Shown: one piece after another, positions 4,783 through 37,096 of the stretch
How positions within the stretch are numbered: position 1 is the stretch's first letter
How the letters are laid out: every line of letters begins with the position of its first letter
Virus record (IMG/VR): IMGVR_UViG_3300025133_000318
Span: 1-37,096 of that record
DNA: 37,096 nt
Source of the DNA: a virus
Direction: 5' to 3' (one strand)
Translations under genes and position numbers: made by a program
The notes under the pieces: generated by a model
Told to the model about the DNA's origin: nothing
Database searches by the model: none
The model's input: the letters and a program-made list of their open reading frames with translations, nothing else

Positions 4783-5721
4783 ATGGCAAGTGGTGCAATA
4801 GGCACTAATCATCAAACGGTCACTACAGCCGCGGATTTTATTCCAGAGCTATGGTCGGATGAGGTTATTGCAGGATATAAAAAGAACCTTGTAGTTGGTA
4901 ATCTTGTTTCTAAGATTGCACACAAGGGGAAGAAGGGGGATCAAATTCATATCCCCAAACCAACCCGTGGATCAGCAACGGCTAAAGCAGCTAATACTGC
5001 TGTATCAATCCAAAGCGACACCCACTCAAAGGTTGATCTCACCATTAATAAGCATTATGAATACTCTGTGCTTATTGAAGACATTACTGAGGTTCAAGGA
5101 TTAAACAGCCTCCGTAGGTTCTATACGGATGATGCGGGTTACGCATTGGCTACTCAGGTTGATACTGATCTGTTCACACTTACTGAGGGATTACAAGGTG
5201 GTACGGTTGGAGGTTCAAATGCTAGTGCATGGGAGAAGGCTTACATTGGTTCAGGAGCGACAAACTATACGGGTAACTCTTCAAACGCCGCAGATATAAC
5301 AGATGCAGGTCTTAGAGCCATGATTTTGGTTTTAGATAATGCAGCTGTACCGATGGATAATCGTTCTTTGATTATTCCACCAGTATGTGCTAATGATTTG
5401 CTAGGTATTAACCGCTTTACTGAGCAACAGTATATTGGATCTGGTGATGCAATTAGGACGGGGAAGATTGGCATGATTTATGGGATAGATGTTTATATCT
5501 CAACTAACTGTCCAACTACTACAACCGCCAACACAGCCACAGATAGAGTAGGTGTATTGATGCACAAAGACGCTCTTGCTCTAGTTGAGCAGATGTCTGT
5601 ACGTTCACAAACACAATACAAGCAAGAGTATCTCGGTGATTTGTTCACTGCTGATACGATTTACGGTGTTGGAGAACTCCGTGATGATGCAGGTCTTGCA
5701 TTTGTAGTTCCAGCTTCCTAA
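4783..5721 (+). CDS. Major capsid protein (HK97-fold type)
   Basis: This 312-residue protein follows the scaffold gene and is preceded by a good ribosome site (AGGAGA). It has the look of the N4 gp56/P22-like podoviral coat group: an N-terminal segment FIPELWSDEVIAGYKKN, a beta-rich middle (GDQIHIPKP, HYEYSVLIEDI) and a C-terminal region with GELRDDAGLAFVV. A strong intrinsic terminator lies directly downstream, as expected for the most highly expressed virion gene. The call rests on position, size and recognised family style; fold assignment is inference. Confidence 0.92.
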   Translation: MASGAIGTNHQTVTTAADFIPELWSDEVIAGYKKNLVVGNLVSKIAHKGKKGDQIHIPKPTRGSATAKAANTAVSIQSDTHSKVDLTINKHYEYSVLIEDITEVQGLNSLRRFYTDDAGYALATQVDTDLFTLTEGLQGGTVGGSNASAWEKAYIGSGATNYTGNSSNAADITDAGLRAMILVLDNAAVPMDNRSLIIPPVCANDLLGINRFTEQQYIGSGDAIRTGKIGMIYGIDVYISTNCPTTTTANTATDRVGVLMHKDALALVEQMSVRSQTQYKQEYLGDLFTADTIYGVGELRDDAGLAFVVPAS

Positions 5722-7067: not shown

Positions 7068-8615
7068 ATGGCAACTACAAGAATCTCAGCCCTAACAGAG
7101 TTAACTACCCCCGCATCAGCAGATGTTCTGGTTATTAATGATGATAGTGCTGGTTCAACAAAGAAGATACAGCTCTCAAATCTTATTCCAGATGATGCTA
7201 TTGATTCAGAACATTATGTAGCAGGTAGTATTGACAATGAGCACTTAGCAGATGATGCAGTAGACTCAGATGAGTTGGCATCAGGTGCTGTTGATATAGA
7301 TCATCTATCAGCTACAGGTACAGCGAGTTCTTCAACATTCCTCAGAGGGGATAACTCTTGGGTAACACCAACAGATACTAACACTATGGGTAGTGGCTTT
7401 ACAGTATCAGCAACAACCGATTCTAATGCTACAACTATAACTCAAGGCGATGACCTGATGTTTACTGCTGGCACAGGTATTACTACCGAAACAACCGCAG
7501 ATGGCACAGTAACTATTGCAAGTACAGTTACAGACACTAACACTATGGGTAGTGGCTTTACAGTATCAGCAACGACTGACAGTAATGCAACTACCATAAC
7601 GCAAGGTGATGATTTAATGTTCACAGCAGGTACGGGTATTACCTGCGAAACAACAGCAGATGGCACAGTTACTATTACAAATACTATCTCTGGTGCTAGT
7701 ACCGCAACCTCTAGTGCTACAGGACTAATAAAGATAGAAGATGATACTGACCAATCTGTAGCAGCAGAAGCAGTAAGCACTACAGCAAATAGAACTTATG
7801 GTCTACAGTTAAATTCTAGCGATCAAGGTGTTGTCAATGTACCTTGGACAGATACTAATACTACTTATAGTGCTGGCGATTTCAAATTAGATGATTTAGA
7901 TTCGCCAGACGATAACACTGATTTGGATTTCTCTACATCTGCACACGGTTTGGTTCCAAAGTGTACAGATACTGGTAATTTCTTAAAAGGTGATGGTACT
8001 TGGGCTGCTGCTGGTGGTGGGTTTAACTCAGTACAAACCTTTACTAGCAGTACAACATGGTCACGACCAAGTGGAGTTACCAAGGTAAATGTCTTTGTCG
8101 TAGGTGGTGGCGGTGGTGGTGGTGGTGCTAACACTGCTTATGGCGGTGCTTGTGGCGGTGGTGGTGGAACATCCATTAAATACGGGCTGGATGTTTCAGG
8201 CATTAGTTCTTCAACTATTACTATTGGTGCTGCTGGTAGTGCTGGTGGTGCGCCCAGTGCCGGGGGTGCAGGAGGAGCATCTAGTTGGGATGATACAACA
8301 AATACCTACACAGGAAATGGTGGTGGTGGTGGTGGTTCCAACGCAGGCGATGTGACAGGCGGCTCAGGCGGAACCGCATCTGGTGGCACATTGAATGTGA
8401 CTGGACAGGCTGGCGTTGGTACATGGAATCATCCCACCAGTGGGGGTTCTCCGCTTCTTTTTGGGCTTGGTGGAGCTAAGAAGAATCCCGGAAATGGCTC
8501 AACAAACCCCGGAACGGGTTACGGTGCAGGCGGAGGTGGTGGAATCAGCAATGCCGCTCATGCTGTAGGGACTGCTGGAACCGCTGGAATCGTTGTTGTA
8601 GAGGAGTACAAGTAA
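7068..8615 (+). CDS. Tail fibre / receptor-binding protein with glycine-rich tip
   Basis: This 515-residue protein has three parts. An N-terminal region of repeated Asp/Ser/Glu/His phrases (IDSEHYVAGSID, VDSDELASGAVD; residues 40-85) is typical of phage fibre shafts. Two 53-residue repeats follow, starting DTNTMGSGFTVSATTDSN (residues about 102-205). The C-terminal domain from about residue 323 contains long Gly runs between short beta-like segments. This last part matches the style of glycine-rich phage tip domains, as in the gp38-type adhesins of T-even phages, which present host-binding loops. A paralogous tip domain is found at 12433-13188. The following gene overlaps by one base and may be a companion assembly protein. 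Confidence 0.85.
   Translation: MATTRISALTELTTPASADVLVINDDSAGSTKKIQLSNLIPDDAIDSEHYVAGSIDNEHLADDAVDSDELASGAVDIDHLSATGTASSSTFLRGDNSWVTPTDTNTMGSGFTVSATTDSNATTITQGDDLMFTAGTGITTETTADGTVTIASTVTDTNTMGSGFTVSATTDSNATTITQGDDLMFTAGTGITCETTADGTVTITNTISGASTATSSATGLIKIEDDTDQSVAAEAVSTTANRTYGLQLNSSDQGVVNVPWTDTNTTYSAGDFKLDDLDSPDDNTDLDFSTSAHGLVPKCTDTGNFLKGDGTWAAAGGGFNSVQTFTSSTTWSRPSGVTKVNVFVVGGGGGGGGANTAYGGACGGGGGTSIKYGLDVSGISSSTITIGAAGSAGGAPSAGGAGGASSWDDTTNTYTGNGGGGGGSNAGDVTGGSGGTASGGTLNVTGQAGVGTWNHPTSGGSPLLFGLGGAKKNPGNGSTNPGTGYGAGGGGGISNAAHAVGTAGTAGIVVVEEYK
7371..7680 (+). repeat. 159-bp tandem repeat in the fibre gene
   Basis: Two adjacent in-frame units of 159 bp (53 codons) begin at about 7371 and 7530. 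The encoded residues are nearly identical (the second unit has ITCETT where the first has ITTETT), while many third codon positions differ. This implies an old duplication kept under protein-level selection. Confidence 0.85.
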
Positions 8616-33982: not shown

Positions 33983-34489
33983 TTAGTAACAAGTATCAAA
34001 ATAATGCCCTTCTGATTCGCAGTAGTTGTAGTTTTGCATTATGTCACGCGTAGTTCCTTCCCAGTTAATATGGATGTAACTAGGCAGGTCACCAATATCC
34101 CACATGTCATCTACCCAGTTCATAACAAAGTCCTTATCACTCGACCACTCACCATGATATGCTTCTTCTATCTTGTCATAGGGGATACTTAAAGCAGCTC
34201 CTGCCAGAAATACTTCTAGGTCAAGGTGTGAGGTTTTGACAGCTTCTATGTAGTCAAAAAAGTTATCATCTAAGTGACATTCAGATATAAGATTATCTGG
34301 AATCCCCTCCCAATCCTGGAACATGAATTCTGGATCATGCTCATCAGCGTGGAGTTTTTTACATGCAGCATAGAATTCTTTAGTATCTGAGAAGTTCTCA
34401 AGATCAAGCCAGTTCTCAAGATCAAGCCAGTCACCAGAAAGATCTCCATGATTATATTTTTTGTAAGTTCCCACATAGATTGAAGCCAT
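33983..34489 (-). CDS. ardA: Antirestriction protein ArdA (DNA mimic)
   Basis: ArdA mimics the bent B-form DNA bound by type I restriction-modification enzymes and blocks them. The 168 residues begin ASIYVGTYKKYNHGDLSGDW and contain EFYAACKKLHADEHDPE and FMFQDWEGIPD, which are the usual ArdA N-domain signatures. Asp/Glu are abundant through the whole protein, as needed for DNA mimicry. An extra WLDLEN hexapeptide (residues 27-32) repeats residues 21-26. It is the first gene of the long leftward operon, with an AAGGAG ribosome site, fitting immediate protection of entering DNA. ardA is best known from conjugative elements; phage examples are less usual. Confidence 0.92.
   Translation of the reverse strand: MASIYVGTYKKYNHGDLSGDWLDLENWLDLENFSDTKEFYAACKKLHADEHDPEFMFQDWEGIPDNLISECHLDDNFFDYIEAVKTSHLDLEVFLAGAALSIPYDKIEEAYHGEWSSDKDFVMNWVDDMWDIGDLPSYIHINWEGTTRDIMQNYNYCESEGHYFDTCY
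34395..34430 (-). repeat. 18-bp tandem duplication inside ardA
   Basis: TTCTCAAGATCAAGCCAG occurs twice in direct succession (34395-34412 and 34413-34430, plus strand). It adds six residues (WLDLEN) in frame. The two copies are identical, indicating a recent event. Confidence 0.95.
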
Positions 34490-34674: not shown

Positions 34675-34700
34675 CCAATTCCCCGGCGCTGATCCATTTT

Positions 34701-34858
34701 GTTGCGGTGCACAATATATGTTGCGGTGCACAATACCCTGAGTATGTTGCAATGCACAATACCCCTGAGTATGTTGCAATGCACAATGGATATGTTGCGG
34801 TGCACAACACCCCGTTTATGTTGCAATGCACAACACTGATTACATTGTGCACCGCAAT
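34701..34858. repeat. Repeat cluster 1: seven copies of GTTGCRRTGCACAA
   Basis: Direct copies begin at 34701, 34720, 34746, 34773, 34794 and 34820. One inverted copy (ATTGTGCACCGCAA) lies at 34845-34858. Each has TTGC and ACAA half-sites around a 5-base centre, and is usually flanked by TAT before and TA or C after. Start-to-start spacing is 19-27 bases. The cluster lies upstream of the ardA operon and downstream of the terminator of the two-gene cassette. It is an operator or promoter-activator array, or replication iterons. Confidence 0.85.
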
Positions 34859-35068
34859 ATGCACAGAGCAAGCCCCGACGCTCTGGCCCACAGATAATGT
34901 GAATAGCTCTATTTAGCTCTGTATTGTGATCTAACGATAGCTTACTAAAAGGGTAGTAGTTACTAAAGGGTATTCGTTAAAATGCGTTTATGAGGATCCT
35001 GGCTCCATTTAAGGGGTAAACCTGCAGCAACTCACCCCGTCGCTCCCTGACCCATAAAACAGAGTGCC
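34859..35068. other. Non-coding stretch with short repeats
   Basis: No convincing gene is present in this stretch. A 6-bp inverted repeat CAGAGC/GCTCTG sits at 34864-34885. TTACTAAA(A)GGGTA is repeated at 34942-34955 and 34960-34972, 18 bases apart. The rest shows nothing I can identify. With the repeat cluster this 630-base gap separates the two leftward transcription units. Confidence 0.5.
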
Positions 35069-35096
35069 AAAAAAAAGCCCCTAACTAAGTAGGGGC
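35069..35096 (-). terminator. Rho-independent terminator of the two-gene cassette
   Basis: On the minus strand a 7-bp stem GCCCCTA/TAGGGGC (35096-35090 and 35083-35077) is followed by eight T (35076-35069). It begins about 24 bases after the stop of the 157-residue gene, closing the cassette. Confidence 0.9.
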
Positions 35097-35119: not shown

Positions 35120-35593
35120 TTAAGCTACTTTGAGCTTTTCCAGAACAGAAGGATCGAAGCCGATAACCTTAGATGGTGCATTTCCTCTTGAGTTGGGACT
35201 CCAATTTTCGCCGTTATCTTTGGCGTACCGTTCACACTCCAATCTGAACATTTCTTCCAGTTGACCCCGTCGAAGCTCTACCACTGTCATTTTTTCCGCC
35301 TCGCTCTCCTGTTGTTGGATTGTTGCACTTGGATCATTAAGCCTCGCTCTAATTTTCTTTAGAGTGTTGGGGATCGAGGTATTAAGAATGTAATCCAATG
35401 ATGAACAAGGCGCGCCGGCGAGAAAATCAACCACCCAATAGACTATGTCGTTATCTTCTTCCCATTGGGTTGGGGGAAAATAAGCTTTCAATAGTTCGAT
35501 GTTGAGATCAAACAGGGAGGCTGTTACCTCTGGTGCGTCACTGACTGTGATGATGTCGGCGCTTTCTAAAGTTTTGAATGATAGGTTTGACAT
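35120..35593 (-). CDS. Unknown early protein, second gene of isolated cassette
   Basis: This 157-residue protein has a clear AAGGAG ribosome site. The N-terminal part is acidic and mixed alpha/beta (ESADIITVSDAPEVTASLFDLNIELLKAYF). Central residues 85-125 are a charged helix (QQQESEAEKMTVVELRRGQLEEMF) and the C-terminus is basic (SRGNAPSKVIGFD...LEKLKVA). I recognise no family and no helix-turn-helix. Its DNA is visibly richer in GC than the neighbouring early genes, hinting at separate acquisition. With the upstream 115-residue gene it forms a unit bounded by repeat clusters, promoter and terminator. Confidence 0.75.
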   Translation of the reverse strand: MSNLSFKTLESADIITVSDAPEVTASLFDLNIELLKAYFPPTQWEEDNDIVYWVVDFLAGAPCSSLDYILNTSIPNTLKKIRARLNDPSATIQQQESEAEKMTVVELRRGQLEEMFRLECERYAKDNGENWSPNSRGNAPSKVIGFDPSVLEKLKVA

Positions 35594-35664
35594 GTTGTTA
35601 CTCCTTGGTTGTGTCGGGATCGGGATGACCCCGACGATTAAAAATCATAGTTACTATTCAGCGA

Positions 35665-36012
35665 TCAAAGTTCTCCTTGGTTGTGAGCATCATATTCGGA
35701 AAGGTCTTTGATCATTGATTTCTCGAGAGTATCCCAAAACGAATACCGATAGTTTCCGTAAAGGTTACCTTGGGTCTGAACAAGTTTAACCGCTTTGTAG
35801 AAGGCTTCCTCAATAATCCAGTATTGCTGTTCTTCCATACATTCCTCGATCAGCTTGATAACAACTTGTTCTGACGGCGGATAATCTTCATTCTGATCCT
35901 GCTGATGATCCTTTTTCAAAGCCTCCTTAAAATCAAAAAAGTCTTTTTTTACTTCCTGAAGAAACTCGTCAAAATCATGATTTAATCTAGCAATATCAAC
36001 AGTATTTTTCAT
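35665..36012 (-). CDS. Unknown acidic helical early protein, first gene of isolated cassette
   Basis: This 115-residue protein is strongly acidic and apparently all-helical (DFDEFLQEVKKDFFDFKEALKKD, then VVIKLIEECMEEQQYWIIEEAFYKAVKLV). AGGAGA lies nine bases before the start. A sigma70-like promoter lies at 36087-36059. High acidity, small size and first-to-be-expressed position would suit a host-takeover or anti-defence protein, but no family is recognised and this is inference. Confidence 0.75.
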   Translation of the reverse strand: MKNTVDIARLNHDFDEFLQEVKKDFFDFKEALKKDHQQDQNEDYPPSEQVVIKLIEECMEEQQYWIIEEAFYKAVKLVQTQGNLYGNYRYSFWDTLEKSMIKDLSEYDAHNQGEL

Positions 36013-36058: not shown

Positions 36059-36087
36059 CTTCTACCAGAAAGCAAACCTCTTGTCAA
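36059..36087 (-). promoter_or_regulatory. Sigma70-like leftward promoter of the two-gene cassette
   Basis: On the minus strand TTGACA (36087-36082) is separated by 17 bases from TAGAAG (36064-36059), 47 bases upstream of the 115-residue gene. The -35 box is a perfect consensus; the -10 box matches four of six. Confidence 0.6.
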
Positions 36088-36110: not shown

Positions 36111-36124
36111 AGACTGACGGGTAT

Positions 36125-36203
36125 GTTGCAACGCACAATGGATATGTTGTGATGCACAATACTGATGGTATGTTCCAATACCACAATATGTTGCACCGCA
36201 CAA
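36125..36203. repeat. Repeat cluster 2: four diverged copies of GTTGCRRYGCACAA
   Basis: Copies are at 36125-36138 (GTTGCAACGCACAA), 36146-36159 (GTTGTGATGCACAA), 36172-36186 (GTTCCAATACCACAA, one base longer) and 36190-36203 (GTTGCACCGCACAA). Spacing is 18-26 bases. The cluster begins 38 bases upstream of the cassette promoter's -35 box. TATG before and AAT after each unit are also shared with cluster 1. Confidence 0.8.
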
Positions 36204-36228: not shown

Positions 36229-36253
36229 AAGCCCCAACTTGTTTGGGGCTTTT
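36229..36253 (+). terminator. Rightward intrinsic terminator
   Basis: A 9-bp stem AAGCCCCAA (36229-36237) / TTGGGGCTT (36243-36251) with loop CTTGT ends in TTTT. It faces rightward although no rightward coding gene lies within 14 kb upstream, so it may end a small RNA or antisense transcription. Confidence 0.7.
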
Positions 36254-36346: not shown

Positions 36347-36390
36347 GAGACCACAATCATACCTACATTCTCTCCTATTTTTCGGTGATG

Positions 36391-36516
36391 GTGTTGATGT
36401 TCCGCCGTAGGCGGTATAAAAAGCCTACACGCTTGCGTGTAGACCTTTTGGTGTTGACGTTGACGTTCCGCCGGAGGCGGTATAAAAAGACTACACGCTT
36501 GCGTGTAGACCTTTTG
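36391..36516. terminator. Duplicated twin-hairpin block, probable bidirectional terminators
   Basis: Two units (36391-36450 and 36451-36516) each hold CCGCC-NNN-GGCGG, then TATAAAAAG, then CTACACG-CTTG-CGTGTAG, then ACCTTTTG. The outer AAAAG and CTTTT can extend the second hairpin on either strand, the usual form of a bidirectional intrinsic terminator. The CTTG loop is a stable tetraloop. A third partial unit begins at 36517 (GTGTTGACGTTG). The block insulates leftward early from rightward late transcription. Confidence 0.7.
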
Positions 36517-36532: not shown

Positions 36533-36662
36533 AGCTGTTGCAAGTGGGGAGAGGTGTATAGAGAGTGGATGTGTCCCCCCTGCACTATCTATGAAGGATA
36601 AAGGAGTCTCTAAAGGGGGACCCATACACTCTCTATACACCTTGCCCCGCTTGGAGATAGCT
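36533..36662. repeat. Large imperfect palindrome (40-bp stem) before the terminase promoter
   Basis: Arms 36542-36581 and 36613-36652 pair over 40 positions with only about four mismatches (two G-T pairs tolerated), around a 31-base loop. AGCT at 36533-36536 and 36659-36662 extends the base. It contains no gene. It lies about 90 bases upstream of the late promoter's -35 box, so it is probably not part of that mRNA. Packaging site, replication structure, structured RNA or a small palindromic insertion are all possible. Confidence 0.85.
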
Positions 36663-36749: not shown

Positions 36750-36778
36750 TTTACAATCTCTTAAAAATATGTTATAAT
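36750..36778 (+). promoter_or_regulatory. Strong sigma70-like promoter for terminase and late genes
   Basis: TTTACA (36750-36755), a 17-base spacer and TATAAT (36773-36778), with an extended -10 TGT. This is the best promoter in the window. Transcription would begin near 36785 and give a leader of about 108 bases before terS. Confidence 0.85.
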
Positions 36779-36892: not shown

Positions 36893-37096
36893 ATGATTAT
36901 GACAACATTAGATCAGTTATTAGAGCCGACAAAGCCTGTCTCTAAGAGTACTATAGAGAGCAGATCAGCTCCTGTAAGTTTTTCTCCTGTAACGCGGGTT
37001 AATGGGAGCGAGGCAGAGAAGGATAATAATGATGATCATAATAATGATGATAATAATGATCATAATAGGGATTCTAGTGGTAGGTTAGTTAAGGGT
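36893..37096 (+). CDS. terS: Terminase small subunit (5' part, continues at position 1)
   Basis: The start is taken at ATG 36893, five bases after AAAAGG; the in-frame ATG at 36899 is an alternative. The frame reads MIMTTLDQLLEPTKPV, then a Ser/Pro region, then the Asn/Asp/His run (15 codons here) and RDSSGRLVKG at the window edge. It joins in frame to the fragment at 1-443. It is the first gene of the rightward operon under the promoter at 36750-36778. Confidence 0.85.
   Translation, partial: MIMTTLDQLLEPTKPVSKSTIESRSAPVSFSPVTRVNGSEAEKDNNDDHNNDDNNDHNRDSSGRLVKG
36933..37096. repeat. Terminal redundancy of the assembly, right copy
   Basis: Same sequence as 1-176 except for a missing 12-base unit (GATCATAATAAT) in the microsatellite at 37022-37066. 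Confidence 0.95.

Follow-up and report, generated by a model that had tools for sequence, protein, structure and literature searches.

The closest described counterparts of the repeats discussed here are the operators of PhaR (AniA), through which bacteria sense their store of the bioplastic PHB; these operators stand before phasin and other PHB genes. PhaR binds DNA, and PHB granules draw it off (PMC12849132, PMC12542648). In Bradyrhizobium its footprint-derived consensus is TGCRNYGCASMA (PMC6201568); in S. meliloti, sites proven by EMSA have the same form, for example that of mmgR, CAATTGTGCACCGCAGCATTA (PMC12542648); and in Ralstonia, where the site is YTKNTGCRNYGCANMAR, PhaR activates phaP3 and represses phaP1, sitting around the promoter (PMC12849132). 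The operators of Bradyrhizobium phaP1 and phaP4, Sinorhizobium phaP1, phaP2 and mmgR, and Ralstonia phaP1 and phaP3 have the core TGCRNYGCA in common.

The DNA analyzed here (the window, a single viral record taken over its full length of 37,096 nucleotides; Table 1) is complete and circular in the assembly, since its ends overlap (36933-37093 match 1-173 at 93%, small indels occurring where the TerS gene has a GAT-rich repeat) and the joint is spanned by another contig, L002. The TerS gene itself runs rightward from about 36894 across this joint, so that it is split by the window ends; in the relative L005 it is whole and encodes 156 aa. Terminase, portal, capsid, and tail genes are on the + strand. 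The - strand, read from right to left, carries the two-gene cassette discussed below, ArdA, DUF932, a gp2.5-like SSB, a T7-type primase-helicase, a C5 methylase, a PolA-type polymerase, and ribonucleotide reductase (the last-listed of these named by reading their translations); the primase-helicase shares 44-47% identity with its counterparts in Pelagibacter and Roseobacter podophages. The cassette heads the leftward (early) half of the genome. Near its start, the ArdA gene has an 18-bp tandem duplication (34393-34428) that is missing in L005.

Table 1. Coordinates of features in and around the cassette and its repeat arrays
Feature	Position	Strand	Description
IMG/VR record IMGVR_UViG_3300025133_000318	37,096 bases		podovirus-like, about 37 kb
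ArdA antirestriction protein	33983..34489	-	PF07275, E 3.1e-19; phrog_2059, E 3.2e-14; first gene behind array 2
Array 2	34698..34861	-	seven exact PhaR boxes at intervals of 19-27 bp; lies upstream of the early operon led by ArdA
Intrinsic terminator	35077..35096	-	directly behind P157; GCCCCTAC..GTAGGGGC + T8; unchanged in relative L005
P157	35120..35593	-	157 aa, acidic
P115	35665..36012	-	115 aa, acidic; RBS AGGAG; first gene of the leftward unit
Cassette promoter	36059..36087	-	TTGACA-17-TGG-TAGAAG, extended -10; top-scoring site
Array 1	36122..36203	-	four PhaR-box-like sites, upstream of the cassette promoter
Array 1 sites	36187, 36122; 36143; 36168		exact core; one core mismatch; degenerate
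Terminator-like hairpin	36229..36251	+	right of array 1; absent from relative L005
Strong sigma-70-like promoter	36750..36778	+	TTTACA-17-TGT-TATAAT; rightward TerS/late unit; not beside PhaR boxes

A sequence-only reading of this DNA had singled out an isolated cassette of two genes, differing in composition from their neighbors and provided with their own promoter, operator-like repeats, and terminator. Both ORFs (here P115 and P157) are indeed present, separated from ArdA by 630 bases and from TerS by about 880, and the cassette has a GC content of about 0.43, as against 0.34-0.36 at 32-34 kb. The promoter and the terminator were likewise recovered. The former scores 10.3, compared with a mean of 7.6 and a maximum of 11.4 among shuffles; the best promoter of L005 is at the same place (TTGCCA-17-TGC-TAGCGT), its position and form being kept through the divergence of the cassette region described below. 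From the terminator to array 2 there is no sign of a structured RNA or an antitermination leader (folding z-score -0.15, no Rfam match). To the right of array 1, the window has two copies of a 66-bp repeat (36380-36511), which contains a TATAAA-like stretch and can form a perfect hairpin (CTACACGCTTGCGTGTAG); L005 has other repeated units (about 5470-5620), and the divergent island has its edge here. Further right, before the late promoter, a 39-bp inverted repeat (87%) surrounds 35 bases (36541-36653) and is a possible origin or control structure.

The repeats are the more important finding. As operator-like elements they stood up to analysis, with 10 sites against 0.4 expected, but the unit is 17 bases long and not 14 as first read. 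This unit, TATGTTGCRRYGCACAA, includes TGCRNYGCACAA; we took it to resemble a phasin-promoter site, a lead that was then tested. The Bradyrhizobium consensus has 9 exact matches in the window where 0.09 are expected, all of them inside the two arrays. The 21-base S. meliloti consensus was set aside as evidence, being too loose when two mismatches are permitted (43 found, 36 expected). Six boxes of array 2 point one way and one the opposite way; array 1 is at least 34 bp upstream of the -35 of the P115-P157 promoter.

A second phage (L004/L005) allows the constraint on these boxes to be gauged. Most of its flanks match the window at 96-99% identity, but the cassette region does so at only about 79%; ArdA is at 95% and TerL at 99%. 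At every intact site TGC and GCA are kept, and the changes are confined to the outer flank or to positions that are degenerate in the core (R, N, and Y). The cores stay fixed while identity drops to 60% in the linker that joins array 1 and P115. L005 also has an extra 78-aa ORF (7461-7697), which lies between array 2 and ArdA and has no counterpart in the window.

What such boxes accompany in bacteria was asked without regard to genes: a strict tandem-box pattern, derived from the phage sequence, was used to scan 257 Gb of genomes from bacteria and archaea and returned five loci (two in Rhizobiales, two in Cohaesibacter, one in Lysobacter). All five adjoin a phasin gene (PF09361, E 1e-13 to 1e-17), and four of the five genomes encode PhaR, the fifth being a MAG. 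A looser pattern, applied to 385 genomes of the same class, gave five matches against none for its reversed control; one repeats an earlier locus, and of the other four, two precede a phasin gene, followed in one case by a PhaR gene. Tandem boxes at two of nine distinct chromosomal loci have no adjoining phasin and are found instead at divergent LysR genes. These two (L146 and L147, in alphaproteobacterial chromosomes) have PhaR-like boxes between the LysR gene and a small ORF, DUF1127-like on reading but without a Pfam match, which is perhaps an undescribed PhaR target.

Among viruses, 25 contigs carry the strict pattern and 44 the looser tandem one, compared with two for the reversed control. 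The pattern-bearing contigs fall into seven nucleotide clusters, or at least six lineages if L120 is left out of the count, its repeat (24-nt unit) being probably coding. Terminases of the array-bearing lineages belong to different PHROGs (2, 15, 38) or are of the window's kind. The arrays, elsewhere of 3-9 cores spaced mostly 14-41 bp apart, are mostly next to the terminase, in a non-coding control region that separates divergent gene blocks. Counting from the -35 of the best early-facing promoter, the first core lies 9-34 bp further upstream in the window and L005 and in two more lineages; several lineages have no array-side promoter that outscores shuffles. At 78 loci whose terminases share 65-69% identity with that of the window, there are just 3 boxes, with 3.27 expected; the arrays are therefore not a trait of this phage family, and a shared host factor explains their distribution better than common descent.

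No phage-encoded PhaR (by its DNA-binding domain, PF07879) was found in any of 26 viral records, the window included, and no phasin in these records reached the cut-off; a weak phasin match near the L109 array was rejected as below it, the annotated ORF there having no match. A blastn search of the arrays against cultured phages produced no convincing carrier, although two strict box sites do occur close to the terminase of a spring-water genome (MW202483). That terminase is 77% identical to the one found in L092, L126, L133, and their relatives, which have 5-9 PhaR cores, spaced by 15 bp and 20 bp, in the region that separates the terminase from the early genes. In another group (L090 3721-4713; also L089, L106, L107, and L119) the array adjoins a 330-aa ORF that resembles a terminase and begins with what reads like an intein (Hint) domain.

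The match to published operators, the association with phasins in bacteria, the constraint on the cores, and the recurrence in unrelated phages together point to a PhaR operator. That host PhaR is the protein binding the arrays is, judging by these sequences, very probable. It is a further step, toward which the balance tips only somewhat, to propose that the arrays are operators of the host's PHB-sensing PhaR that the phage has borrowed to regulate its own genes, coupling the early cassette to PHB status. We infer here that the host carries PhaR, that PhaR binds the arrays, and that binding changes transcription. Since PHB granules draw the DNA-binding PhaR off, the arrays probably report or alter PHB status. 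With few granules, free host PhaR would bind the arrays; with abundant granules, it would move onto these and leave the arrays. In this way the host's carbon store would tune the early leader cassette and perhaps also the replication operon that follows, and P115 and P157 would be PHB-tuned phage effectors. The placement of an array upstream of the -35 resembles that at the PhaR-activated Ralstonia phaP3 more than that at the repressed phaP1. Several observations count against regulation of phage genes by PhaR: no convincing sigma-70 promoter was found between array 2 and ArdA; two of the nine chromosomal tandem-box loci are not beside phasins; seven boxes in one array exceed what an ordinary operator needs; and the lineages in which no array-side promoter beats shuffles fit equally well with titration of the regulator.

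As for the cassette proteins, the same early reading described P115 and P157 as acidic and without a recognized family, and took them to be first expressed, which is still an inference. They do have net charges of -9 and -12, but this is nothing special, most early proteins being acidic (ArdA, -28). The absence of a family was upheld: nothing significant emerged from PHROGs, Pfam, NCBIfam, PADLOC, PDB sequences, or tblastn on 50,697 phage records, and no search found relatives outside this phage group. Structure prediction, which had been proposed as a check, gave no fold match from AlphaFold models that are themselves weak (pLDDT 56 and 62, from 4-sequence alignments); P115 is predicted to be all-helical, and P157 to have one confident central helical hairpin in a model weak overall. 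Neither can be considered a phasin (no Pfam match to Phasin_2, PF09361, and no profile similarity), nor a known defense or anti-defense protein (no match to the curated PADLOC, PHROGs, Pfam, or NCBIfam models). The idea that one of them might be a regulator acting through the adjacent repeats gives way to the idea of a host regulator: the repeats match a host PhaR operator, neither protein has a DNA-binding signature, and nothing supports either as the binder.

Both genes are kept in L004/L005, with protein identities of 83% (P115) and 59% (P157). P115 has 89% nucleotide identity and a dN/dS of about 0.46, while P157, at 61% with saturated synonymous sites, is the most divergent gene between the two phages; next to near-identical flanks, it therefore looks to have been exchanged for a diverged allele. 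Such strong divergence between near-identical phages is typical of arms-race or exchanged genes, and with the leader position of the cassette it would suit host-takeover or anti-defense factors, a reading that concerns the proteins and not the repeats. The neighboring ArdA fits an early, host-directed setting as well, and is the sole support for anti-defense in particular. This proposal nonetheless seems rather unlikely, given the empty searches above, PDB among them, and given that a regulator or a PHB-granule-directed protein is equally possible.

For the arrays themselves, the main rival to regulation of phage genes by PhaR is that they act chiefly as a sponge: multiplying phage DNA would titrate host PhaR, PhaR-repressed genes (phasins, PHB depolymerases) would be released, and stored PHB would feed phage production, with regulation of phage genes secondary. 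The number of sites (7 + 4 in the window, and the 3-9 cores per array elsewhere) would suit this role, and in Bradyrhizobium phaZ1 and phaZ3 are in fact repressed by PhaR (PMC6201568). A sponge would not, however, need to be placed as these arrays are, right upstream of an early-facing promoter in the window, in L005, and in two other lineages, nor would it call for two arrays in the window, each before its own unit, though non-coding room is scarce. On balance titration is an unlikely main role, yet it stays a serious rival because of the high copy number of the arrays and the other lineages without such a promoter. That the repeats are instead bound by a phage protein, as origin iterons, TerS packaging sites, or sites for a phage repressor, and are like PhaR boxes by convergence, is suggested by their nearness to terminase genes in several lineages and by the iteron-like look of directly repeated 15-27 bp units, but is improbable when the same motif is beside different terminase families, is no commoner than chance around the 78 terminase relatives, mostly marks phasin promoters in chromosomes, and is accompanied in the cassette by proteins without a DNA-binding signature.

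More widely, unrelated phages of PHB-storing bacteria may have convergently equipped their early/late control region with arrays of the operator of the host's PHB sensor. Infection would then be gated by, or would take control of, the carbon-storage state of the host, with P115 and P157 as PHB-gated effectors acting on the host; this wider proposal is a tentative one, a little less likely than not. A literature search, most subscription journals lying outside its coverage, found no title or abstract on control of phage by PhaR and no paper joining PhaR binding with a phage genome. PHB carbon storage is found widely among bacteria of the sea and the soil, and the response of phages to the nutritional state of their hosts is a long-standing question; with an experimentally defined host operator arrayed in several phage lineages, sensing or commandeering of PHB by phages becomes directly testable. 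Metagenomes can also be searched with the motif for phages that infect PHB-storing hosts, and the arrays themselves might be put to use as a genetic tool for titrating PhaR.

Three described systems can be set beside this locus. The ArdA antirestriction proteins (PF07275) include the neighboring early gene as a clear Pfam member, but P115 and P157 are unrelated to ArdA. The PhaR operators of phasin and PHB genes have in common with the phage sites not just the core but the CAA/AACA flanks; known operators often come as two copies per promoter, and unlike them the phage arrays have four and seven copies, stand before phage early units, and are found in a phage without a phasin or PhaR gene. Lastly, it is generally known that host regulators can act on phage promoters, LexA-controlled phage genes being an example. 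There, as proposed here, a host transcription factor reads the state of the host and acts on phage promoters; the difference is that the state sensed here would be carbon storage, in the form of PHB.
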